38,901 nucleotides of DNA, taken from NCBI GenBank assembly GCA_919901575.1, contig CAKKPF010000174.1, positions 1 through 38,901 of the forward strand. Direction: 5' to 3'. A model generated the notes under the pieces. That model did not search any database. It was given only the letters and a program-made list of their open reading frames with translations, and was not told the DNA's origin. Each line of letters opens with the position of its first letter. Within the stretch, counting starts at the first letter, position 1. Source of the stretch: Candidatus Brocadiaceae bacterium. GTDB taxonomy: Bacteria > Planctomycetota > Brocadiia > Brocadiales > Scalinduaceae. Below are positions 5,138 through 36,458 of this stretch, piece after piece. A program made the translations under genes and the position numbers.

Positions 5138-7168
5138 ATGAAAGAAAAAGGGAACCTTGATCAGTTATGCATCGGTACCATACGAACGTTATCAATGGAT
5201 GCGGTACAAAAGGCAAATTCCGGGCATCCGGGTGCGCCGATGGGCCTTGCGCCTGTAGCATTTACACTTTGGGATAGATTTATGCGCCACTCTCCCTGCA
5301 ACACAGATTGGCCTAATCGGGATCGTTTCGTACTTTCGGCGGGGCATGCTTCAATGCTTTTGTACAGTATATTACACATATTTGGATACGATATCAGCCT
5401 GGACGATATTAAGAATTTCAGGCAATTGCATAGTAAATGTGCCGGCCATCCTGAATATGGTCTGGCGCCGGGTGTAGAAGTGACTTCAGGGCCTCTTGGA
5501 CAGGGCGCTGCAAACAGCGTTGGTATGGCGATAGCGGAGAGGTGGCTTCAATCATATTTCAATCGTCCCGGACACGAGATAATTAATTATAATATATTTG
5601 CCATTGCGGGCGACGGATGCATGATGGAGGGTATATCCGGCGAAGCGGCATCTCTGGCAGGCCACCTCAGCCTGAGCAACCTGGTATGGATTTATGATAA
5701 TAATAATATTACTATTGAAGGCAACACATCACTGGCATTCAGCGAAGATGTGGCCGCGCGCTTCAGGGCTTACGGATGGAACGTTCAGCATGTTACAGAT
5801 GCGAATGATATAGGAACGCTGGAGAGGGAACTGCAAACCGCTATAGATGAAAAAGAGCGGCCGTCTATAATAATTGTTGATAGCCATATTGCGTATGGCA
5901 GTCCTAATAAGCAGGATACAGCGGACGCTCACGGCGCTCCCCTGGGTGATGACGAGGTCAGGGCTGCGAAGGAAAATTATGGTTGGGATCCGGACAAAAC
6001 ATTTTACGTGCCTGATGAAGTCTCGAAGTTTAAAGAGGCTATGATAGATAAGGGTACAAGGTTGGAAGAGGAGTGGAAGGAAAAGTTAAAGGCCTATACA
6101 AAGGCGTTTCCTGATCTGGCAAGGCAATTTAATACAATGCAGAATTGCGAATTGCCGGAGGGATGGGAGGACATCATTCCAACCTTTCCGGCTGACGCAA
6201 AGGGACTTGCTACCAGAGAATCAAACAATAAGATAATAAATCCGATTGCTGATAAAATCCCGTGGTTCATGGGGGGCTCTGCTGATTTGGGGCCTTCTAC
6301 AAAGACCTATATAAAAGAGACTACGAGTTTCAGCAAGGAAGATTACGGTGGCAGAAATCTCCATTTCGGAGTTCGTGAACATGCCATGGGGGCCATTATA
6401 AATGGAATGTCTTTAAGCAAGATCAGGCCATACGGGGCTACATTCTTTGTTTTTTCAGATTATGCGCGTCCTGCAATCCGCTTATCTTCTTTGATGAAGC
6501 AGCCTGTGATTTATATTTTTACTCACGACAGTATTGGTGTTGGCGAGGACGGGCCGACACATCAGCCTGTCGAACATCTTGCTTCGTTACGTGCAATGCC
6601 TGATTTAGATGTCATTCGCCCTTCAGACGCCAATGAACTGTCAGTGATGTGGAAGTACATCATGGGACTTAAGGACCGTCCTGTTGCGCTGGTCTTAAGC
6701 CGCCAGGCTATGCCTACTCTTGATCGTTCAAAATATGCCCCGGCTGATGGCGCATCAAAGGGGGCTTATGTCCTGATTGAGAGTGAAGGTACCCCTGATG
6801 TTATCCTGATAGGAACCGGTTCTGAAGTTCAAATATGTCTTGATGCGTATGATCAATTGACAGATGAGGGAATCAGGGCAAGGGTAGTAAGTATGCCGTG
6901 TTGCAGTCTTTTTCAAAGTCAGGAAAAAGATTACCAGAAAGAGATTTTACCTGATTCAGTGCGGGCACGTGTTGTAGTAGAAGCAGGGTCGACTTCCGGT
7001 TGGCATAGATATACCGGAAGGCCGGATGATTGTGGTATATTCGGGCTTAAGGGCTTCGGCGCTTCCGCACCTTCCAAAGATTTATACAAAGAATACGGTT
7101 TTACCACGGAGAGAGTGGTGCAGGTGGCAAAAAACGTTATAAAAAAAGCAAAAAACAAAATAATTTGA
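5138..7168 (+). CDS. tkt: Transketolase
   Basis: [76 protein letters not shown]. Confidence 0.97.
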
Positions 7169-7213
7169 TAGTACACAGGTTTCCGCTACAGCAGACATTT
7201 GTAATTTTAAGTT

Positions 7214-7972
7214 ATGGGGAAAAAGATTCACGTTTATCCAAATAAAAAGAAACTCGCAACCGAAGCTGCAGAGCGGGTTATAAATGTGATTGGGCAGACG
7301 ATACGGGAAAATGGTTTGTGCAATATAGCGTTGGCCGGCGGCAAAACTCCCCGTGAAGTATATTCAATGCTGGCTACGGACGCTTACCGGGATCAAGTGG
7401 CTTGGAGTAAGCTTCATCTTTTCTGGGGTGATGAGCGGATGGTTCCTCCGGAGCATCTGGATAGTAATTTCAGGATGGTTCAGGAAACGCTTCTTGATCG
7501 TATCAATATACCGGATGGAAATATTCATCGGATTCGGGGAGAAATTGCGCCGGAAAAGGCGGCTACGGAGTATGCGGAGTTGCTGCACAACCATTTTAAA
7601 GAAGGGTTGCCACGTTTTGATTTAATATTGCTTGGACTGGGAGATGACGGCCATACTGCTTCACTTTTTCCTGGTACGGATGCGGTTGAAGAAGGTGAAC
7701 GGCATGCGGTTGCAGTCTATGTTCCCGGGTTAAATACATGGCGGGTGACGTTAACATTGCCTGTACTTAATGCGGCCAAGGAAATTTTATTTCTGGTTTC
7801 TGGCAGATCAAAGGCTGATATTGTCCAGCGTATAATAAGTATCAAACAACCTGCTAAAGAATTTCCTGCAACCATGGTAAATCCGGAAAACGGCACACTT
7901 CACTGGATGCTGGATTCCGAGGCAGTGGTTTTAATCAATAAAAACGCAAGAGAAGTTATGTTTCATTATTAA
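7214..7972 (+). CDS. pgl: 6-phosphogluconolactonase
   Basis: ALAGGKTPREVYSML, LFWGDERMVPPEHLDSNFRM, LLGLGDDGHTASLFPGT; in the PPP cluster. Confidence 0.93.
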   Translation: MGKKIHVYPNKKKLATEAAERVINVIGQTIRENGLCNIALAGGKTPREVYSMLATDAYRDQVAWSKLHLFWGDERMVPPEHLDSNFRMVQETLLDRINIPDGNIHRIRGEIAPEKAATEYAELLHNHFKEGLPRFDLILLGLGDDGHTASLFPGTDAVEEGERHAVAVYVPGLNTWRVTLTLPVLNAAKEILFLVSGRSKADIVQRIISIKQPAKEFPATMVNPENGTLHWMLDSEAVVLINKNAREVMFHY

Positions 7973-8006
7973 ATAACAATTAACTTGCCTGAAAATTTTG
8001 ATGTAG

Positions 8007-8059
8007 GGTGGATTACCCGTCCGACCGTGTCATCCGGGCGGGAGCGGAGCGAATCCACC
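8007..8059. repeat. Intergenic imperfect palindrome (REP-like)
   Basis: GGTGGATT (8007-8014) pairs with AATCCACC (8052-8059); inner CCCGTCCG / CGGGCGGG. Confidence 0.6.
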
Positions 8060-8099
8060 AATTCCTGTGTTGAATATTATTGTTTAATGAAAAGTAATC

Positions 8100-9521
8100 A
8101 TGAATAAGCAAGTTTTTGGCCTGATCGGCCTGGGTGTTATGGGTCAGAATTTTGTACTCAATGTTGAGCGCAACGGTTACGGCGTTGCTGTTTATAATCG
8201 AACTGCTGAAACAACAGAGAAATATATTGCAGGTCCTGCCTCCGGCAAAAATATCAAACCTGCGTATACATTAAAAGAATTTGTTGACGCACTGGAAACC
8301 CCTCGCAAGATTATGTTACTGGTTAAAGCCGGTGCGCCTGTTGATGCGACCATCCAGCAGCTTATTCCTTTATTAGATAAGGGCGATTTGATTATAGACG
8401 GGGGAAATTCTTTTTTTCTTGATACGGAAAGGTGGGCTAAGGAGCTTGAGTCTCAGGGCTTCAATTTTTTTGGAATGGGAGTATCCGGTGGAGAGGAAGG
8501 CGCTTTATGGGGGCCGAGTTTGATGCCGGGTGGTTCCAGAGATGCTTACAAGGAAGTCGAACCCATTATGAAGGCTGTGGCTGCAAAGGCAGAGGAGGAT
8601 GGGGAACCCTGTGTAACATATATTGGCCCGGGTGGTTCCGGCCATTATGTTAAAATGGCTCATAACGGTATCGAGTATGGCGATATGCAGCTTATTGCAG
8701 AGGCTTATGATTTGCTCAAGCGTGCCCTTGGACTATCCGCTCAGGAATTTCACGAGATTTTTGCTGAGTGGAATAAGACGGAATTATCCTCGTTTCTAAT
8801 TGAGATAACAGCAAAAGTTTTTAAGAAGATAGATGAAGATACCGGAAGGCCATTAGTGGATGTGATATTGGACAAAGCCGGGCAAAAAGGAACGGGCAGA
8901 TGGATGGGTGAAAACGCTCTGGAATTGGGAATATCAATACCTACAATTATTGCTGCAGTTAATGGAAGAATTCTATCTTCACAAAAGGACGAACGTGTAT
9001 ATGCTTCAAGTGTGCTAACAGGTCCGGCAAAAAAGTATGAAGGCGCTTCACCACAAAAACTGATAGATTCAACAAGAGATGCGCTTTACGTGTCTAAAAT
9101 TTGTTCTTATGCTCAGGGTATGAGTTTGCTTAAGAAGGCATCTGTGGAATACGGATATAACATGGACCTGGGAACAATTGCAAAAATCTGGAGAGCTGGT
9201 TGTATTATTAGGGCTAGGCTCCTTAATGACATAACCAGCGCTTTCAATCGAAATAAGGATTTACCAAATCTACTCGTTGACGACGTGTTTCGGGAGTCAG
9301 TAAAAACCAGACAGGAGTCATGGCGTTTTGTCATCAGGACGGCAATAGAATTAGGCATTCCCATGCCGGCCATGAGCGCTTCACTGGCATATTATGACTC
9401 TTACCGCAGTGAACGTTTACCTGCTAATTTGATTCAGGCCCAACGCGATTTCTTTGGGGCGCATACCTTCGAGCGCATTGATAAACCGGGTATCTTTCAC
9501 GCTGACTGGGAGGAGAAGTGA
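8100..9521 (+). CDS. gnd: 6-phosphogluconate dehydrogenase, decarboxylating
   Basis: GLIGLGVMGQNFVLNVERNGYGVAVYNRT, DGGNSFFLDTERW, MGVSGGEEGALWGPSLMPGG, GSGHYVKMAHNGIEYGDMQLIAEAYD, KAGQKGTGRW. Confidence 0.97.
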   Translation: MNKQVFGLIGLGVMGQNFVLNVERNGYGVAVYNRTAETTEKYIAGPASGKNIKPAYTLKEFVDALETPRKIMLLVKAGAPVDATIQQLIPLLDKGDLIIDGGNSFFLDTERWAKELESQGFNFFGMGVSGGEEGALWGPSLMPGGSRDAYKEVEPIMKAVAAKAEEDGEPCVTYIGPGGSGHYVKMAHNGIEYGDMQLIAEAYDLLKRALGLSAQEFHEIFAEWNKTELSSFLIEITAKVFKKIDEDTGRPLVDVILDKAGQKGTGRWMGENALELGISIPTIIAAVNGRILSSQKDERVYASSVLTGPAKKYEGASPQKLIDSTRDALYVSKICSYAQGMSLLKKASVEYGYNMDLGTIAKIWRAGCIIRARLLNDITSAFNRNKDLPNLLVDDVFRESVKTRQESWRFVIRTAIELGIPMPAMSASLAYYDSYRSERLPANLIQAQRDFFGAHTFERIDKPGIFHADWEEK

Positions 9522-25258: not shown

Positions 25259-25783
25259 ATGAATAGCCAAATAACAACAGAAGAAAAAACACTTGCCGAT
25301 TCTAAGGATGTAAACCGCAGAAGGGCTCTCTATCTGCTTGGCTGGGGATTCATAGGCGTGTTCATGGCTTCAGTAGTTGGCGCGGCCATCAGGTTCTTCT
25401 TCCCGCGCATAATTTATGAACCGCCTACGAAATATAATGTAGGCTTTCCATTTGAGTATTCTGTAGGGGTTAGTGAGAGGTTTAAGAAACAATTCAGGGT
25501 ATGGATAGTTCGAGAGGTTGATAAGATATATGTGATTCAGGCTAAATGTACTCATTTGGGTTGTACACCTAACTGGTTAGCATCCGAGGGAAAGTTTAAA
25601 TGTCCATGCCATGGGAGTGGTTTTACGCCTGATGGAGTGAATATTGAAGGGCCTGCTCCAAGGCCATTAGAGAGGTTTAAGGTTGCAATAGCTGATGATG
25701 GACAGCTTTCGGTTGATGAGAGTGTGAGGTTTAGGGGCGAACGTAGTGAATGGCATAAACCTGGCGCATTTGTTTCAGTGTAA
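25259..25783 (+). CDS. Rieske [2Fe-2S] protein, complex 1
   Basis: CTHLGC...CPCHGSGF motifs; N-terminal TM. Confidence 0.95.
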   Translation: MNSQITTEEKTLADSKDVNRRRALYLLGWGFIGVFMASVVGAAIRFFFPRIIYEPPTKYNVGFPFEYSVGVSERFKKQFRVWIVREVDKIYVIQAKCTHLGCTPNWLASEGKFKCPCHGSGFTPDGVNIEGPAPRPLERFKVAIADDGQLSVDESVRFRGERSEWHKPGAFVSV

Positions 25784-25988
25784 GTACCTGTGCACTACAA
25801 ACTTGCAACATCGTGTTTTTTTAATAGCATTCCTTAAAGGATAGCATTATCCACCATATCCCGATGCCGGCAAAATTGTATGCCTGTTTAACTATACCAT
25901 TTGCTGGCCTGGCGGGGATGGGTAGTGTAGTTTAGTTGTTTTAACTTACCGTCCTGGTACGGATGGCAAGGAGTTTGGAGGTTCGAAA

Positions 25989-26813
25989 TTGAGTAATAAA
26001 GAAGGAAAAGAGAAGTTAAATATACGAGAGTTGATAAAGGCAAAAGGTATTCCTGGCGCAATTAAGGACTTGACGCTCAATTCTCAGGTATGGCGTTCGT
26101 TCTTTCGTCATGGTTTAGAGGACACGCCAAAGACAAGGATGCAGACCGTAATAAGCAATTCCTTTCTCCACCTGCATCCGGCCAAGGTAAAGAGACATGC
26201 TCCATTATTCAAGTATACATGGTGCATGGGTGGTATCACATTTTTTACGTTCCTTCTTTTAACGATAACGTGTGTTTTTTTGATGTTTTACTATCATCCT
26301 AATGTAAGAGATGCATACTGGGATATGAAGGGATTGGAGTACCATGTGCCTTTTGGCTTACTTTTAAGGAACCTTCACAGGTGGGGAGCTCATCTGATGG
26401 TGATAACTGTATGGTTTCATATGTTCAGGGTGTTTATGACAGGTTCGTATAAACCGCCAAGAGAATTTAATTGGGGGATAGGGGTAGTCCTTCTGGTTTT
26501 TACGTTACTTTTGAGTTTTACGGGTTACTTGCTTCCATGGGATCAGCTGGGTTTCTGGGCTGTAACAGTAGGTACTAATATGGCCCGAGCTACACCAGGT
26601 CTTGGGCATGAGGGCCCTTTTGGTGAGATGCTTGGTATGACGGCTTATAATGATATAAGGTTTGCATTGTTAGGCGGGTCAATGGTTGGCGGTAATGCGC
26701 TCTTAAGGGCATATATATGGCATTGCGTTGGTTTGCCTCTTATAGTAAGTGCATTTTTAATAGTGCACTTCTGGAGAATACGTAAGGACGGAGGCATTTC
26801 GGGTAAACTGTAG
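25989..26813 (+). CDS. Cytochrome b (b6-like N-terminal half), complex 1
   Basis: [71 protein letters not shown] start with upstream GGAGG. Confidence 0.95.
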
Positions 26814-26820
26814 AGTAATC

Positions 26821-26892
26821 AAGTAGGGGCAAACGGCAGAGCCCCGCTAAGCGTGGCAAAGCTGAGCTTAGCTCTGCCGATCGCCCCTACTT
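26821..26892. repeat. Long imperfect hairpin inside the complex 1 gene cluster
   Basis: AAGTAGGGGCAAACGGCAGAG (26821-26841) vs CTCTGCCGATCGCCCCTACTT (26872-26892), 19/21 paired; inner GCTAAGC / GCTTAGC. Confidence 0.85.
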
Positions 26893-26924
26893 TGCAGAGC
26901 AAAAATTATAGAAGGAGAAGAAAA

Positions 26925-27056
26925 TTGGGAAACCTTTGGCATATAATAAGCAAGCCTGACAATATACCGATAGTTGGTTTGATAATCCTGTTGATTTTCT
27001 TTACGTGGTTATCATTTAGTCAGGCATTTCAGAATGATCGGCTTCGTGAAGAATGA
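26925..27056 (+). CDS. 43-aa single-TM protein homologous to the N-terminus of cytochrome b/b6 subunit IV (split-gene fragment)
   Basis: TTG start preceded by GAAGGAG (26911-26917); MGNLWHIISKPDNIPIVGLIILLIFFTWLSFSQAFQNDRLREE aligns with N-terminus of the 35080 ORF (MSNIIHILFLKDNEAIALFGIIVIFFVIVAFREAIKNDRLKRE). Confidence 0.75.
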   Translation: MGNLWHIISKPDNIPIVGLIILLIFFTWLSFSQAFQNDRLREE

Positions 27057-27087
27057 AGAAATTTTTGAATTATAGAGGAATGATTTA

Positions 27088-28803
27088 GTGGATTATAAGA
27101 TCGTTCATGCTGATGAAAGTTGGTTCAGGGAGAACATAAGTTGTCAATATGCCTGTCCGGTTAATACTCCTGCTTCCAGTTATATAGAGAGGATCCAGGA
27201 GGGGGATTATAATGGCGCCTTGGGTTTAAACTATATGGCAAACTTGTTCCCTCACATTCTTGGCAGGGTATGTACCCATCCGTGTGAGAGCGCTTGCCGC
27301 AGGGGTAAGATTGATGAACCGGTATCAATTTGTTCGCTTAAGAGAGCGGCGGCGGATTTTGCAGACAAAAAATCTCCTGCAAGAAGTTCGATTGCAAAAA
27401 AAAGGACAGGAAAGAAGGTAGCCATAATAGGCGCTGGCCCTTCCGGGCTTGCTGCCGGTAACGATTTGGCGATTATGGGGCATGACGTTACAATCTTTGA
27501 AGCTCTTCCTATGGCAGGGGGTATGTTAAGTGTAGGAATTCCTCCCTACAGGTTGCCATGGAATAAAATTGATGAAGCAGTTAATTGGGTTAAGGAACTT
27601 GGAATAGAACTTAAACTGAATAGTCCTGTAAAAAGTTCAGAAGAGTTTGATAAGTTGGCCGAAAAATATGATGCCGTATATATAGCCGCAGGCGCACACA
27701 AATCAGTAGCATTAGATATACCGGGAGAAGAAGACCTCAAAGGAGTTCTGCACGGTATTACGTATATGAAGGATATAAATCTCGGAGAACAGAAGAAGGT
27801 GCCATCGAGAGTTGCAGTGGTAGGAGGAGGATTTACTGCAATAGATTGTGCAAGATCGTCATTAAGGTTGGGCGCCAAGGAGGTCTTTATCATATACCGA
27901 AGAACGCTGAAAGAGATGCCGGCAGGTGAGCTTGAAGTAAGCATGGCAGAGGAAGAGGCGATAAAAATACTTTACTTAACATCACCAATTAGAATATTGG
28001 GAGATATAGGTTCAAACGTAAAGGCTATAGAATGTATAAAGAATAAACTGGGCGAACCTGATGCGAGCGGCAGAAGAAGGCCGGAGCCTGTCCCCGGCAG
28101 TGAATTTACATTGCCTGTAGATATGGTGATTGCAGCAATAGGCCAGGCTCCTGATGCCGGTTTTGTGACCGGGAAATCAGGTGTGGAATTTACAAAATGG
28201 GGTACTGTTATTGTGGATCCTGAAAGTTTTACAACAAGCAGGGCGGGTGTTTTTGCGGGAGGAGATTTCATAACAGGGCCCAGGAACGTTATTGAAGTAA
28301 TAGGTGACGGCAGAAAGGCGGCCAGAGCCATAGATAAATATTTAAGTGGCGGTAAGGAAAGAAGGTATGAATACACGTTAATGGAAAAAAATCCTGTGAG
28401 GAAAGATCCTGGTTATGAGGCTGTGCCGCGTCAGGAGCAGGATTCAGTTGAAATGGGTGCAAGATGGGATATAGAAAAGGAGGTAGAGCTTGGTTTTTCA
28501 AAGGAGAATGCCGCTAAAGAGGCCGACAGGTGCTTGCTCTGCCATTACAATATATTTATAGATGCGGACAAATGTGTGCTTTGTGGAGGGTGTATTGATA
28601 TTTGCCCTCACAATTGCATTATGATGGTTTCCAGGGATAAGATAGAGGCGGAAGGTCTGCTCGATGGATCAGTCACCAAAGACTGGGATGCAGTGATGGC
28701 CATAGATGAGGAGCAGTGTATAAGATGCGGCCTTTGCGTAAAGCGGTGTCCGGTGGATGCAATAAAGATGCAGAGGTTTTCTTATACTGAAGCTACAGTA
28801 TAA
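27088..28803 (+). CDS. GltD/NfnB-like FAD-dependent NAD(P) oxidoreductase with N- and C-terminal [4Fe-4S] motifs
   Basis: CQYACPVNTPASSYIERI, CTHPCESACRRG, IIGAGPSGLAAGNDLAIMGHDVTIFEA, GGGFTAIDCARSSLRLGAKEVFIIYRR, CVLCGGCIDICP, CIRCGLCVKRCP; GTG start. Confidence 0.93.
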   Translation: MDYKIVHADESWFRENISCQYACPVNTPASSYIERIQEGDYNGALGLNYMANLFPHILGRVCTHPCESACRRGKIDEPVSICSLKRAAADFADKKSPARSSIAKKRTGKKVAIIGAGPSGLAAGNDLAIMGHDVTIFEALPMAGGMLSVGIPPYRLPWNKIDEAVNWVKELGIELKLNSPVKSSEEFDKLAEKYDAVYIAAGAHKSVALDIPGEEDLKGVLHGITYMKDINLGEQKKVPSRVAVVGGGFTAIDCARSSLRLGAKEVFIIYRRTLKEMPAGELEVSMAEEEAIKILYLTSPIRILGDIGSNVKAIECIKNKLGEPDASGRRRPEPVPGSEFTLPVDMVIAAIGQAPDAGFVTGKSGVEFTKWGTVIVDPESFTTSRAGVFAGGDFITGPRNVIEVIGDGRKAARAIDKYLSGGKERRYEYTLMEKNPVRKDPGYEAVPRQEQDSVEMGARWDIEKEVELGFSKENAAKEADRCLLCHYNIFIDADKCVLCGGCIDICPHNCIMMVSRDKIEAEGLLDGSVTKDWDAVMAIDEEQCIRCGLCVKRCPVDAIKMQRFSYTEATV

Positions 28804-28861
28804 TTTGTGTTAATGTTAGAATAGCAACAAACTTTTAGTAATTTTGTGAAGGGAATGTGAA

Positions 28862-29689
28862 ATGCCTGATAAGAAAGAGACTGCACAAGGAAGATATCGC
28901 GCACTAGCGTTTGTCAAGGGTGAGTCGCTGGCGAAGGAGAAGGATTCACAGGTGTCCGAGGATGAACTTCATACCTGGCCTTACTTGGTGAGGAAGGAGT
29001 TTCTTGCGGTGATAATTGTAATGATAATCTTGATGATCTGGTCAATAGCGCTTGATGCGCCATTAGAAGAACCTTCAGACCCTTCCCTCACACCTAACCC
29101 GGCAAAGGCGCCATGGTATTTCCTTGGGTTACAGGAGATGCTTGTATATTTTGATCCGTGGATTGCAGGGGTAATATTTCCTTCGTTGATAGTAATGGGA
29201 TTAATGGTAATTCCTTATGTTGACATAAATCCTAAGGGTAATGGTTATTATACATTCAAGGAGAGAAAGTTTGCGATAGTGACGTTTTGCTTCGGGTTTC
29301 ACGTACTCTGGATTTTATTGATTATAGTAGGAGTCTTTATGCGTGGGCCCGGCTGGTTGTGGTTTTGGCCGTGGGAGGAATGGGACTCTCACAGAATAGT
29401 AGCAGAGACAAATTATGATCTAACACAGTTTATTGGTATTGATTCAAAATCCTTGCTGGGTTCTATCATTGGCGGAGGTATTGTAACTATTTATTTTTTC
29501 CTGGGTATGACGGTGCCGTATCTTCTTATGAAAATGCGGAAGAGTCAGATGCTTGAGAAATTAGGGACAATAAGATATTCGATAGTGGCATTTTTGTTCT
29601 GGTCTATGTTGGGGTTGCCTATCAAAATGGTTTTAAAATTGGTATTGCATCTAAAATATATATGGGTTACACCATGGTTTAATATATAA
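28862..29689 (+). CDS. Cytochrome b/b6 subunit IV-like protein lacking the first TM segment, complex 1
   Basis: WPYLVRKEFLAVIIVM...TPNPAKAPWYFLGLQEMLVYFDPWIAGVIFPSLIV; paralogous to 35080-35970 but with an unrelated soluble N-terminus. Confidence 0.88.
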   Translation: MPDKKETAQGRYRALAFVKGESLAKEKDSQVSEDELHTWPYLVRKEFLAVIIVMIILMIWSIALDAPLEEPSDPSLTPNPAKAPWYFLGLQEMLVYFDPWIAGVIFPSLIVMGLMVIPYVDINPKGNGYYTFKERKFAIVTFCFGFHVLWILLIIVGVFMRGPGWLWFWPWEEWDSHRIVAETNYDLTQFIGIDSKSLLGSIIGGGIVTIYFFLGMTVPYLLMKMRKSQMLEKLGTIRYSIVAFLFWSMLGLPIKMVLKLVLHLKYIWVTPWFNI

Positions 29690-29784
29690 AGCGATAGATT
29701 GTTTAACCATTTCATAAAAATACAAGTCGCTTAAACGGATAACTGGTCGCCAGACTGAAAGGCGGGAGTAACCGTTCGCGCTGG

Positions 29785-29829
29785 GGTATCATGGGATACC
29801 TGGCAAAGCCACGCTCAGCGTGGTAAAGC
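29785..29829. repeat. REP-like palindrome cluster
   Basis: GGTATC/GATACC (29785-29800) and CCACGCT-C-AGCGTGG (29809-29823); the AGCGTGGtAAAGC core resembles AGCGTGGcAAAGC in the 26821-26892 hairpin. Confidence 0.6.
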
Positions 29830-30389
29830 CTTATTCGTCAGGTTTTTACAACCCCATTTCCACTCAATTATACTATGGCAATTATGCAGGCGCCATGTTA
29901 TCTACGTCTACAGATATCAACTTTTTCATATATAACTTCCCTTTGACATTCCACTCTTCCACAAGGAAATCATAACACTGTAACAGTAGTATAATCACAA
30001 GATTTACATAGGCTTATGTGATATTCTGGCCGTTATAAATCATGATGTGCAAACGGAATTTACGTTAAAATGAGTAAAAATTTGTCTTTTTGTCATACCA
30101 AACATCAAATCCATTTCGAAAAAAGCTGAAGAGTACATAAATGTATGTAGGTTATAATATCTTGAATAATAGGTGAAATTCCCAATTGAAAACATAATCT
30201 TATTGCATTTTGCCGAAAAAAAACTTTAAAAAAAGTATTCTACCAAAATGTCTGTTTTTCAGGACTTCAAAAATAGGCATATACTCTGATTATTGGCGTT
30301 ATGGTATATTATTATGCATGTATTTTTAACTTATGATGATATGTGACACGCTGTCCTGAAAACCTGGTATGATTTTTCTGATAATGACG

Positions 30390-30408
30390 TTTTGTGTAAT
30401 ACACAAAA
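30390..30408. promoter_or_regulatory. Candidate operator / upstream activator site
   Basis: TTTTGTGTA-A-TACACAAAA perfect 9-bp-arm palindrome ~113 bp upstream of the sigma54-like element. Confidence 0.45.
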
Positions 30409-30519
30409 TGATGTATTTATAGCGCTTAATCTGTAGCTAAGTAAAATATATTCCATATCTTACGATAACAAAACTACTTAGTAGAGTTGGTCATAGTTTG
30501 TAGAATAAATTTATAGATT

Positions 30520-30534
30520 TGGTATAAGCTTTGC
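30520..30534 (+). promoter_or_regulatory. Candidate sigma54 (-24/-12) promoter upstream of octaheme cytochrome gene
   Basis: TTGGTATAAGCTTTGCT: GG (30521-30522) and GC (30533-30534) separated by 10 nt. Confidence 0.5.
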
Positions 30535-30624
30535 TAACCTAAGAATGCGCTATAACCATTGTCTCCATAAGGGCTTGAATATAATATCTTTTAAAAAAAT
30601 AGTTGTTTTTTTAGGAAGTTTATT

Positions 30625-33120
30625 ATGAAAAAGGAAGAACAAAAATCATATGTTCTGATGTATGCAATTTGTGCTGCTATATTAATAATAGTGCAGGCTT
30701 GGGCAATATGGAACGAAGTTGTGGGTAAAAGGCCGTGGAAGGATTACCAGAGAAAGTTTTATTCGCTACTGATAGACAACATTAATGATGATATAGAGGA
30801 AGAAAAAAAGAGGTTTGATGGTCCTGATGTTCAAAAAGAATATCAGGAGGTGGCGCAGAAACTGGAAAAGGCGAAAAAAGAGTTTAAAATGTCTGGTAAT
30901 CAAAATGAGTTCAATAAATTAGAGGAGGCTATACGTAATATCAGGAGCAAAGAACTGTCACCCTTACAGTTGCAATTGTCGGACATTAGGAACAGGGTTC
31001 TTGAAGAAGAATATTTATATACTAAGGATCGTACCGAAGAGCGTAAGGTAATATTAGATAAACTTAAGGAAGAAGCGAGTGAGGCGCTTTCTATTGTTGA
31101 GAAAGTAAAGGCCAGGTTGGCAGAGATGCAGGAGAGAAAGATTGCGTTAACTACGCAAATAGAAAAATATGAAGAAGAATTGAAGCCGTTTGTTGCGCCT
31201 ATCAATAAGCTTCAGGAAAGATTGACATTGTTAACAAGAAAGCGTCCGAGTTTACAGGAATATCAGATACATATTCCAGCGCTGAACGAAGTAGACCGGT
31301 GCAAAAGCTGTCATCTGGGAATTGACAGGGATGAAAGTATTTCAGATAAACAGCCTTTTAAAAAACATCCTGGGAGCTACATATTTTTAAAGAATCACCC
31401 TCTTAAGGATTTTGGTTGCACTGTGTGTCATGAGGGGCAGGGAGGGGCGACAACGTCTGTAGAAAAAGCACATGGTGAAGTTGAATACTGGCTGCATCCG
31501 ATGCTTCGTGGAAGTCTGGCTCAGGCAAGTTGTATCAAGTGTCATGAAAGAACAGATGATCTGCCGGGTGCTGAGATGGTCTCAATGGGGCAAAGGCTTG
31601 TCGTTGAAAGAGGTTGTGTAGGGTGTCATGATGTGGAGGGCTTTCCTACGGTAAAGATTGGGCCTCCTCTTACTTTTGTTGGAGAGAAGGTTAGCTACAA
31701 ATGGTTGAAGACGTGGCTGAAAGATCCCCATGAAACTTATGAAAAAGCAAGGATGCCAAACTTCATGCTTTCGGATGAGGAAATAGAAAATATTGCAGAT
31801 TTCTTTGAGGGGCTAAGCAGAGGCGAGCTTGAGACAATGATTGCGGCTGATCCGGATGTGGATGAAGAAAAGTATCAGAGAGGTATGGCCCTTTATAACA
31901 GTTCCAGATGTGTTATCTGCCACCCAAGAGAAGGCAGGGGCGGAGCGGTGAAGTATGTTTATGCACCTGATCATACAAAGATAGCGAGTAAGATTAGTAA
32001 GGACTGGTTATTCCGTTGGATAAAAAATCCACAGGCTTATCATCCAGATACAAAAATGCCGCATTTTAGATTTACGGATAAAGAGGCGGAGGAATTAGTG
32101 ACCTTTATGAGTGCTGAATTTATAGATTGGGATGCCGTTGATGAAGAAGAGGAGGAAGGAGAAGAAGTAGTCAAGGCAGTTAAGAGGGATAGCGATCCTG
32201 CGTCTGCTGAGAAAGGCAGAGAACTGGTAAAAAATTATGGTTGCTATGGTTGTCATGAGATTAAAGGGTTTGAGAACGAGAGCAAGATAGGGGTAGAACT
32301 TACGAGTTTTGGTTCCAAATCCGTGGAACTATTGGATTTTGGTGTGGTTAAGGATTTAGAGAGGAGTTGGCTGAGCTGGACAATGGCAAAGTTGAAGGAT
32401 CCCAGACAATTTAGAGAGGGGATCAGGATGCCTAAATTCAGTTTTACTGATGAAGATTTTGATGCATTAGTATGTTTGTTGAAAAGCTTCAAAGAGAGGA
32501 CAGTACCGGTCAATTATTTTGTAAAGGCGACAACTGTAGGATACGAACCGCAGGGGAAATTCGGGAAGATTGTGGAGGATTTAAATTGCCTGGTTTGTCA
32601 CAGGATAAAGGACAAAGGGGCAAACTTTGCGCCGGATCTTACTTATGAGGGCAGCCGTGTGAAAAGAGAATGGCTTGAAGATTTTTTGAGGGCGCCTGAC
32701 ATACTCAGACCGCTTTTTCAACAGATGCCAAGGTTTAACCTGTCGGAAGAGGAGATAAAGATTGTTGCGGACTATATTACACTTGTTTTGGTAGATGATG
32801 AGGTGATTGCCAGGGAGGATTTGGGTGAAATTACGAGTGACAATGTGGAGCGAGGCAAGAAAATATACAATGAGAAGGGATGCCAGGCATGCCATCAGAT
32901 AGGTATTGAAGGTGGCGCTGTAGGCCCTAATCTAAGTGTGGCCGGTGATAGATTGACTCCCGAATATATCTATATGCACTTAAAAGATCCTCAGAAGTGG
33001 GGATCTTCAAACGTAGCTCCAAACTACGGTTTAGATGATGAGGAGCTTACATATCTTACCAAGTACTTATCAGACCTTAGAGCAAAAAAGGTGGGGTTCT
33101 TATGGAAAAATACAAATTGA
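30625..33120 (+). CDS. Membrane-anchored octaheme c-type cytochrome (paralog 1)
   Basis: N-terminal TM + coiled coil; eight CXXCH: CKSCH, CTVCH, CIKCH, CVGCH, CVICH, CYGCH, CLVCH, CQACH. Confidence 0.93.
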   Translation: MKKEEQKSYVLMYAICAAILIIVQAWAIWNEVVGKRPWKDYQRKFYSLLIDNINDDIEEEKKRFDGPDVQKEYQEVAQKLEKAKKEFKMSGNQNEFNKLEEAIRNIRSKELSPLQLQLSDIRNRVLEEEYLYTKDRTEERKVILDKLKEEASEALSIVEKVKARLAEMQERKIALTTQIEKYEEELKPFVAPINKLQERLTLLTRKRPSLQEYQIHIPALNEVDRCKSCHLGIDRDESISDKQPFKKHPGSYIFLKNHPLKDFGCTVCHEGQGGATTSVEKAHGEVEYWLHPMLRGSLAQASCIKCHERTDDLPGAEMVSMGQRLVVERGCVGCHDVEGFPTVKIGPPLTFVGEKVSYKWLKTWLKDPHETYEKARMPNFMLSDEEIENIADFFEGLSRGELETMIAADPDVDEEKYQRGMALYNSSRCVICHPREGRGGAVKYVYAPDHTKIASKISKDWLFRWIKNPQAYHPDTKMPHFRFTDKEAEELVTFMSAEFIDWDAVDEEEEEGEEVVKAVKRDSDPASAEKGRELVKNYGCYGCHEIKGFENESKIGVELTSFGSKSVELLDFGVVKDLERSWLSWTMAKLKDPRQFREGIRMPKFSFTDEDFDALVCLLKSFKERTVPVNYFVKATTVGYEPQGKFGKIVEDLNCLVCHRIKDKGANFAPDLTYEGSRVKREWLEDFLRAPDILRPLFQQMPRFNLSEEEIKIVADYITLVLVDDEVIAREDLGEITSDNVERGKKIYNEKGCQACHQIGIEGGAVGPNLSVAGDRLTPEYIYMHLKDPQKWGSSNVAPNYGLDDEELTYLTKYLSDLRAKKVGFLWKNTN

Positions 33121-35079: not shown

Positions 35080-35970
35080 ATGTCAAATATAATTCACATT
35101 TTATTTCTTAAAGATAACGAGGCAATAGCTCTTTTTGGCATTATTGTGATATTTTTCGTTATAGTCGCTTTCCGGGAGGCTATAAAGAATGATCGCCTGA
35201 AAAGAGAGGGTAAATGGCCGCCTGAAGAACAATCCGGTAAGGACAAGGTTTTAGCATGGCCTTTTCTTGTTAGAAAGGAATTTCTGGTTGCTATTTTTGT
35301 TATGATGGGTGTGCTTATTTGGGGTATAGTCAGGAATGCGCCCCTGGAGGAATTTGCCAACGCAAATGTTACCCCTAATCCTTCGAAGGCTCCCTGGTAT
35401 TTCCTCGGATTGCAGGAAATGTTGGTTTATTTCGATCCGTGGATAGCAGGAGTTCTTTTTCCCTCCTTGATTATAGTCGGCCTGATGGCCATTCCGTACA
35501 TTGATATTAATCCGAAAGGCAATGGATATTATACATTCAGGGAACGAAAATTTGCGGTTTCGGTGTTTGCTTTTGGCTTCCTATTCTTATGGGTAGTACT
35601 GATAATAGTTGGTGTGTTTTTCCGTGGGACCGGCTGGTTGTGGTATTGGCCATGGCAGGAGTGGGACCCACACGCTATTGTTGCCGAAACAAATTACGAT
35701 TTTACACAATTTATCGGCATCGATTCAAAATCTTTATTAGGTTCTGTTATTGGCGGTAGTGTTGTAGTGATGTATTATTTTCTTGGTATGGCAATTCCAT
35801 ATGCAATTATGAGGGCGAAGAATAGTGGAACGCTTCAGAAGCTTGGGTTTATCAGATACATGGTGGTTGCCTTTCTTTTCTGGTCAATGATAGGATTAAC
35901 GATAAAGATATTTTTAAGATTAGTTTTTCATTTGAAATATGCCTGGGTAACACCATGGTTCAATATTTAA
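35080..35970 (+). CDS. Cytochrome b/b6 subunit IV-like protein, complex 2 (unsplit)
   Basis: N-terminal TM + WPFLVRKEFLVAIFVMM...TPNPSKAPWYFLGLQEMLVYFDPWIAG. Confidence 0.9.
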   Translation: MSNIIHILFLKDNEAIALFGIIVIFFVIVAFREAIKNDRLKREGKWPPEEQSGKDKVLAWPFLVRKEFLVAIFVMMGVLIWGIVRNAPLEEFANANVTPNPSKAPWYFLGLQEMLVYFDPWIAGVLFPSLIIVGLMAIPYIDINPKGNGYYTFRERKFAVSVFAFGFLFLWVVLIIVGVFFRGTGWLWYWPWQEWDPHAIVAETNYDFTQFIGIDSKSLLGSVIGGSVVVMYYFLGMAIPYAIMRAKNSGTLQKLGFIRYMVVAFLFWSMIGLTIKIFLRLVFHLKYAWVTPWFNI

Positions 35971-36014: not shown

Positions 36015-36458
36015 ATGCCGTATGTGGTTACTGAAGAATGCACTGGTTGTACTGTTTGCGCAAAGCAGTGTCCGATGGGCGCTATTTCCGGCAGGGCAAA
36101 AGAACTCCATTATATTTCAGCGTCCCTTTGTATTGACTGTGGTGTGTGCGGTATGGCTTGTCCTTCATCTGCAGTTTTAGATTCTTCTGGCAATGTTTGC
36201 AAGAAAGTAAGTTTGAAAAACAGACCAAAGCCTGTTGTCGACCCGGAACTTTGCAGCGGATGTGAAGCCTGCGTTACAATTTGTCCGTTTGGTTGTCTGG
36301 AGGTTAACGGCTCAATAATGCCTTTTGAAACTAAAGGTAAGGCCGAACTGGTTAAACCTGCTAAGTGTGTTAGTTGCAGAGAATGTGAAAGGATTTGCGC
36401 TAAAAGCGCCATTATTTTAGAAATATTACGTAAGGAGATTGTCTCCGAGGTTTCTTAA
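36015..36458 (+). CDS. Polyferredoxin with four [4Fe-4S] motifs
   Basis: CTGCTVCAKQCP, CIDCGVCGMACP, CSGCEACVTICP, CVSCRECERICA. Confidence 0.93.
   Translation: MPYVVTEECTGCTVCAKQCPMGAISGRAKELHYISASLCIDCGVCGMACPSSAVLDSSGNVCKKVSLKNRPKPVVDPELCSGCEACVTICPFGCLEVNGSIMPFETKGKAELVKPAKCVSCRECERICAKSAIILEILRKEIVSEVS

Follow-up and report, generated by a model that had tools for sequence, protein, structure and literature searches.

R/b-2 of anammox bacteria, the closest described system, combines a Rieske protein, a four-helix cytochrome b, an NAD(P) oxidoreductase (OxR, Kustd1483), a five-helix subunit IV (SUIV) and a large multihaem cytochrome (Kustd1485) (PMC12954380, PMC8862662). Kustd1480 is the Rieske protein and Kustd1481 the cytochrome b, and AlphaFold3 models place OxR and an Fe–S relay on the n-side and give SUIV five helices (PMC12954380). 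Division of respiratory membrane proteins has been described elsewhere: in the b6f complex, a longer cytochrome b is split into cytochrome b6 and subunit IV (PetD), and in ba3/B-type haem–copper oxidases, subunit IIa is a single-helix bacterial subunit of 34–71 aa that equals the first helix of a larger subunit, the split lying in the linker between two helices and the small gene often going unannotated (PMC3128077). Mitochondrial cox2 has likewise become two complementary genes by insertional fission, with foreign sequence between them (PMC5374615).

The window, a stretch of 38,901 nucleotides from a Candidatus Brocadiaceae bacterium (contig CAKKPF010000174.1), carries two Rieske/cytochrome b operons in tandem on the forward strand. 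Complex 1 (25259–33120) begins with a Rieske [2Fe-2S] subunit (25259–25783; PF00355), and its gene order is identical across complex-1 loci. There follow a four-helix cytochrome b6-like subunit (25989–26813; PF00033), a 43-aa ORF with a TTG start (26925–27056), an NfnB/GltD-like NAD(P)/FAD oxidoreductase with C-terminal 4Fe-4S clusters (OxR; 27088–28803, GTG start, 571 aa), the remainder of SUIV (28862–29689, 275 aa) and a multihaem cytochrome c (30625–33120) whose S. rubra homologue (L044, 71% identity) lies directly after SUIV. Complex 2 runs from 33102 to the contig end and encodes a small cytochrome c, a Rieske protein, a cytochrome b, an unsplit SUIV with the helix in cis (35080–35970), which serves as an internal control, a four-cluster ferredoxin and a multihaem cytochrome. 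The polyferredoxin-like protein with four 4Fe-4S motifs (36015–36458) accompanies unsplit-SUIV complexes (L069, L070, L075, L079–L082) and may be what complex 2 has in place of OxR. Elsewhere in the window, we observed an Rfam Acido-Lenti-1 RNA at 1683–1727 that scored just at the gathering threshold. Between cytochrome b and the small ORF lies a strong inverted repeat (26823–26890; RNA fold −45.8 kcal/mol, z −5), and its 29 full or partial matches across the genome indicate that it is probably a dispersed palindromic repeat.

Complex 1 is the known anammox R/b-2 complex, corresponding to Kuenenia stuttgartiensis kustd1480–1485. The order Rieske, cytochrome b, OxR, SUIV and multihaem cytochrome c was found in both Brocadiaceae and Scalindua loci, and OxR has the Pfam domains Pyr_redox_2, Fer4_20 and Fer4 and relatives in the PDB (NfnA/NfnABC), as befits an NAD(P)-linked enzyme carrying FAD and several 4Fe-4S clusters. 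Since the order cytochrome b, small ORF, OxR, SUIV holds in every locus, kustd1482 should be the small ORF and kustd1484 SUIV. The R/b-2 papers (PMC12954380, PMC8862662) give no account of kustd1482, so assigned by elimination, or of a split SUIV. No mention of kustd1482 was found in the anammox R/b literature examined, nor any description of the helix gene as a detached SUIV helix, although the Kuenenia annotation may already include this gene.

The remainder of SUIV in complex 1 consists of a soluble N-terminal module and five hydrophobic segments with a PetD-like core. SUIV matched the Cytochrom_B_C/PetD core above the gathering score (PF00032, 1.4e-5) and b6f subunit IV in the PDB (1q90_D, 3.1e-4), and fell below the NCBIfam equivalog cut-off for cytb6_f_IV (TIGR01156, 23.9 bits vs 127), which marks it as a PetD-like protein rather than b6f subunit IV proper. 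An AF2 model of the fused SUIV, which does not bear on interfaces, was of moderate quality (pLDDT 76, pTM 0.69), and a fold search with it returned only weak matches to b6f subunit IV (E 0.2).

The initial annotation had proposed that SUIV of complex 1 is split, with its first helix in a free-standing ORF and OxR lodged between the two pieces, and the small ORF, OxR and SUIV remainder are indeed all present in this arrangement, at exactly the positions it gave. The small ORF starts with TTG, is preceded by the sequence agaaggagaagaaaa, and encodes 43 residues ending in QAFQNDRLREE before the stop; its last residues, NDRLREE, match those with which the fused helix of complex 2 SUIV closes. The homology of the free ORF to the fused helix was recovered by a helix profile and by alignment of free and fused helices, in which the opening DN and the closing ND are invariant. 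In hydropathy profiles, the small protein has a single strong peak, whereas split SUIV has five peaks and fused SUIV has six. Identity with a known b6f small subunit or any other solved chain was rejected, as comparison with solved chains, b6f small subunits included, gave no convincing PDB match and no Pfam or NCBIfam family was matched.

All 35 anammox complex-1 loci with the OxR operon, from both Scalindua and Brocadiaceae (33 loci plus L182 and L016, each with cytochrome b and OxR on one contig), carry the small ORF immediately ahead of OxR, with a product of 43–50 aa; this recurrence is far above chance. The comparison across Brocadiales proposed at the outset showed the split in every one of these complex-1 operons. 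In-frame pN/pS was about 0.17–0.22 (Scalinduaceae 0.18, Brocadiaceae 0.17), while shifted frames gave 1.3–3.9 and all contained stops, a codon-level pattern indicating that the ORF is under strong purifying selection. Its shortness and the TTG start in the window genome might suggest an untranslated ORF or an assembly artefact, but the presence of the gene in complete chromosomes (e.g. G026, G030, G037, G039 and G040) and in all 35 loci, the selection on its codons and the lack of any alternative open frame reduce the chance of this to almost nothing, and we reject it at the sequence level. The two observations named beforehand as counter-evidence, a small ORF not conserved or translated in relatives and an unsplit SUIV at the same locus in a relative, both failed to appear: the ORF shows conservation as well as selection, and none of the relatives keeps SUIV in one piece there.

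Most Scalindua-genus genomes use TTG or GTG as the start codon, with ATG elsewhere, and the position of the first residue is constant; this agreement among relatives that use GTG, TTG or ATG supports the TTG start. The earlier remark that the gene is easily missed by annotation does not hold in general, as ATG is the usual start codon of homologues from outside the Scalindua genus and the Kuenenia numbering leaves a slot at kustd1482. At most of the Brocadiaceae loci L045–L066, the last codons of the helix gene (CAAAAAGGAGAA, C-terminal QKGE, then the stop) form the Shine–Dalgarno sequence of OxR, 3–6 bases before it, suggesting translational coupling at these loci. In four Brocadiaceae loci (L053, L057, L061, L063), we observed 2–3 kb between OxR and SUIV; at L063, an insert (5900–8700) holds mobile- or defence-like genes, and the small ORF and both flanking genes are retained. 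At L037 (G013:C18, 4954–6708), OxR lies in two frames owing to a frameshift, which may be a sequencing error or mark a pseudogene.

The distribution of the fused form indicates the direction of change. Sampling of SUIV within Planctomycetota gave matches to the SUIV query in 154 of 392 genomes (E ≤ 1e-30), a count that includes anammox genomes with split SUIV, and the helix was in the same ORF as SUIV at all 30 loci fetched from outside the order. In a maximum-likelihood tree of SUIV cores, with the helix left out, the split clade (22 rows; 100/94, starred) has the unsplit complex-2 clade as its sister and lies within a more inclusive clade of fused SUIVs (49 rows; 100/94, starred); because it is nested in fused clades, the split is a derived gene fission. 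The earlier description of an organised split is thereby strongly supported, since the split occurs throughout the R/b-2 operons of the two anammox families, is missing from fused relatives and takes a derived position on the SUIV tree, and the sequences indicate that the arrangement is ancient and conserved in anammox bacteria. Small free single-helix subunits are known from b6f complexes, and the SUIV helix has no counterpart in PetD, so it could be argued that the helix began long ago as a separate subunit, the state still seen in R/b-2, and was only later joined to SUIV in other lineages. Such a history would require several independent fusions and runs against both the fused state of all 30 loci outside the order and the starred support for a split clade within fused ones; we consider it very improbable, and fission is favoured.

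We found that the fused helix and an operon OxR do not occur together. Among 103 SUIVs, 46 have the fused helix, none of these with an operon OxR, and 48 have an operon OxR, none of these with the helix in cis; the other 9 have neither, some of them on truncated contigs. The tree requires only about three changes to account for this exclusion, so the counts are not independent, and a test of independent pairs found 2 concordant pairs (p 0.5), too few to be informative. A helix profile search detected free copies only in complex-1 loci and in a family termed f3, and found no helix, free or fused, in other OxR complexes (kuste4569-74 type and f2 type), which makes the helix unnecessary for OxR coupling in general. 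In one locus (L160, G009:C51, 4300–5550), we observed a further arrangement of these parts: a single ORF joins cytochrome b to SUIV, lacks the N-terminal helix and lies downstream of OxR. Split SUIV carries a conserved soluble N-terminal module, RYRALAFVKGESLAKEKD. When compared with 69 other SUIV N-termini, its best matches all came from OxR complexes (L159, 1.3e-5; L092, 0.0066; L072, 0.012). The earlier claim of a new soluble N-terminus is therefore upheld as to the presence and conservation of the module, though it is not wholly new, having weak relatives in other OxR complexes.

We suggest, with a probability of about 0.66 for the explanation as a whole, that SUIV of R/b-2 was cut in the n-side linker, that the helix was kept and that OxR docks at this place. 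The SUIV gene was cut behind its first helix, in a linker that should face the cytoplasm (n-side), and the OxR gene now lies in the gap. The helix would still be made as a single-pass subunit of 43–50 aa, and very probably keeps the membrane position next to SUIV that the fused helix has. Loss of the linker, together with the new N-terminal module of SUIV, would free n-side surface for the binding of OxR, which the module may contact, and OxR would pass electrons from the b hemes to NAD(P)H. Going by charge and b6f topology, the helix should end, with its positively charged C-terminus, on the cytoplasmic side, where the PetD-like core should also begin, and a cut in a cytoplasmic linker lies on the side where the models of PMC12954380 place OxR. 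A docking site for OxR, as the initial annotation had suggested, is plausible on circumstantial grounds: the fused helix and operon OxR exclude each other, the cut falls in the n-side linker, the module recurs weakly in other OxR complexes and the published models (PMC12954380) place OxR on the n-side; the split probably marks where OxR is attached to the complex. Other OxR complexes have lost the helix and so show that it can be done without, which accords with the idea that it is the linker alone that OxR cannot tolerate.

The sister family f3 appears to be a second case. It is known from one genome (G018), which is 77% complete, and its operon is broken over two contigs: one (L179) carries Rieske, cytochrome b, a free 67-aa helix protein and OxR, and the other (L072) carries OxR, a helix-less SUIV and a multihaem cytochrome. 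The contig ends share a 213-bp overlap (89% identity), and a first OxR tree, which suffered from the frameshifted L037 and long branches, placed the two OxR pieces together (100/100); both results suggest that the contigs are probably one operon. The f3 SUIV falls in the complex-2 clade (99/94, starred), as does its cytochrome b (100/99, starred), and its free helix is of the complex-2 type (KDNEVIALFG). A common clade of split SUIVs including f3 was rejected for SUIV (AU p 0.0025) and was unsupported by cytochrome b. These sequences suggest either a second fission at the same linker or a transfer of OxR into a complex-2 operon. It is possible, though we hold it only tentatively, that gene fission is a repeated assembly device, used at least twice in Brocadiales, in which the fused SUIV would have been cut at the same cytoplasmic linker as OxR joined the operon, with the result that a proton-pumping bc complex came to form NAD(P)H and the helix was kept as a new subunit. 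Alternatively, OxR may have been inserted once, and f3 may have gained OxR and the N-terminal region of SUIV by recombination into a complex-2-type operon, the second split following from the transfer. The rebuilt OxR tree, in which f3 OxR may stand as sister to complex-1 OxR (AU p 0.105), and the resemblance of the f3 N-terminal module to that of complex 1 speak for such a transfer, but the SUIV and cytochrome b trees place both proteins in complex 2, and the complex-2 type of the free helix argues that f3's own fused gene was cut; we see this history as conceivable yet doubtful. It is a variant of the docking explanation, and the two are not mutually exclusive.

A neutral origin of the split would account for part of the same evidence. 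The OxR gene could have landed in the linker by chance, with the halves still able to assemble and the arrangement becoming fixed in the ancestor of anammox bacteria for reasons unrelated to docking: split membrane proteins can reassemble, as subunit IIa of ba3 oxidase illustrates (PMC3128077), the complex-1 clade represents one event on the tree, and the exclusion of fused helix and OxR rests on few changes. However, chance insertion would not lead us to expect a second split with the same gene order in a different SUIV and cytochrome b clade, OxR complexes that never have the fused helix, or a common module at the N-termini of some OxR-complex SUIVs. We therefore regard a neutral fission as unlikely and prefer docking of OxR at the cut linker.

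The locus holds a genuine gene split, conserved and derived, whose partner gene is closely linked and whose complex is already known. The split is akin to that of ba3 subunit IIa, but the enzyme is another one, and the gap in the oxidase genes holds no unrelated redox gene (PMC3128077), whereas in R/b-2 a functional redox partner lies between the halves, and the split has probably occurred more than once. The core of SUIV aligns with PetD, but SUIV here has an extra N-terminal helix absent from PetD and is itself split again. The insert proposed for cox2 is a nuclease-bearing cluster and not a functional partner of the complex (PMC5374615). In the leading proposal for NAD(P)H formation in anammox bacteria, OxR-bearing Rieske/cytochrome b complexes divert bifurcated electrons to NAD(P)+, and the split pins down where the bc scaffold changed when OxR joined. 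Structural models of R/b-2 should include the helix as a conserved and easily overlooked small subunit, and the unsplit complex 2 in the same genome offers a natural control.
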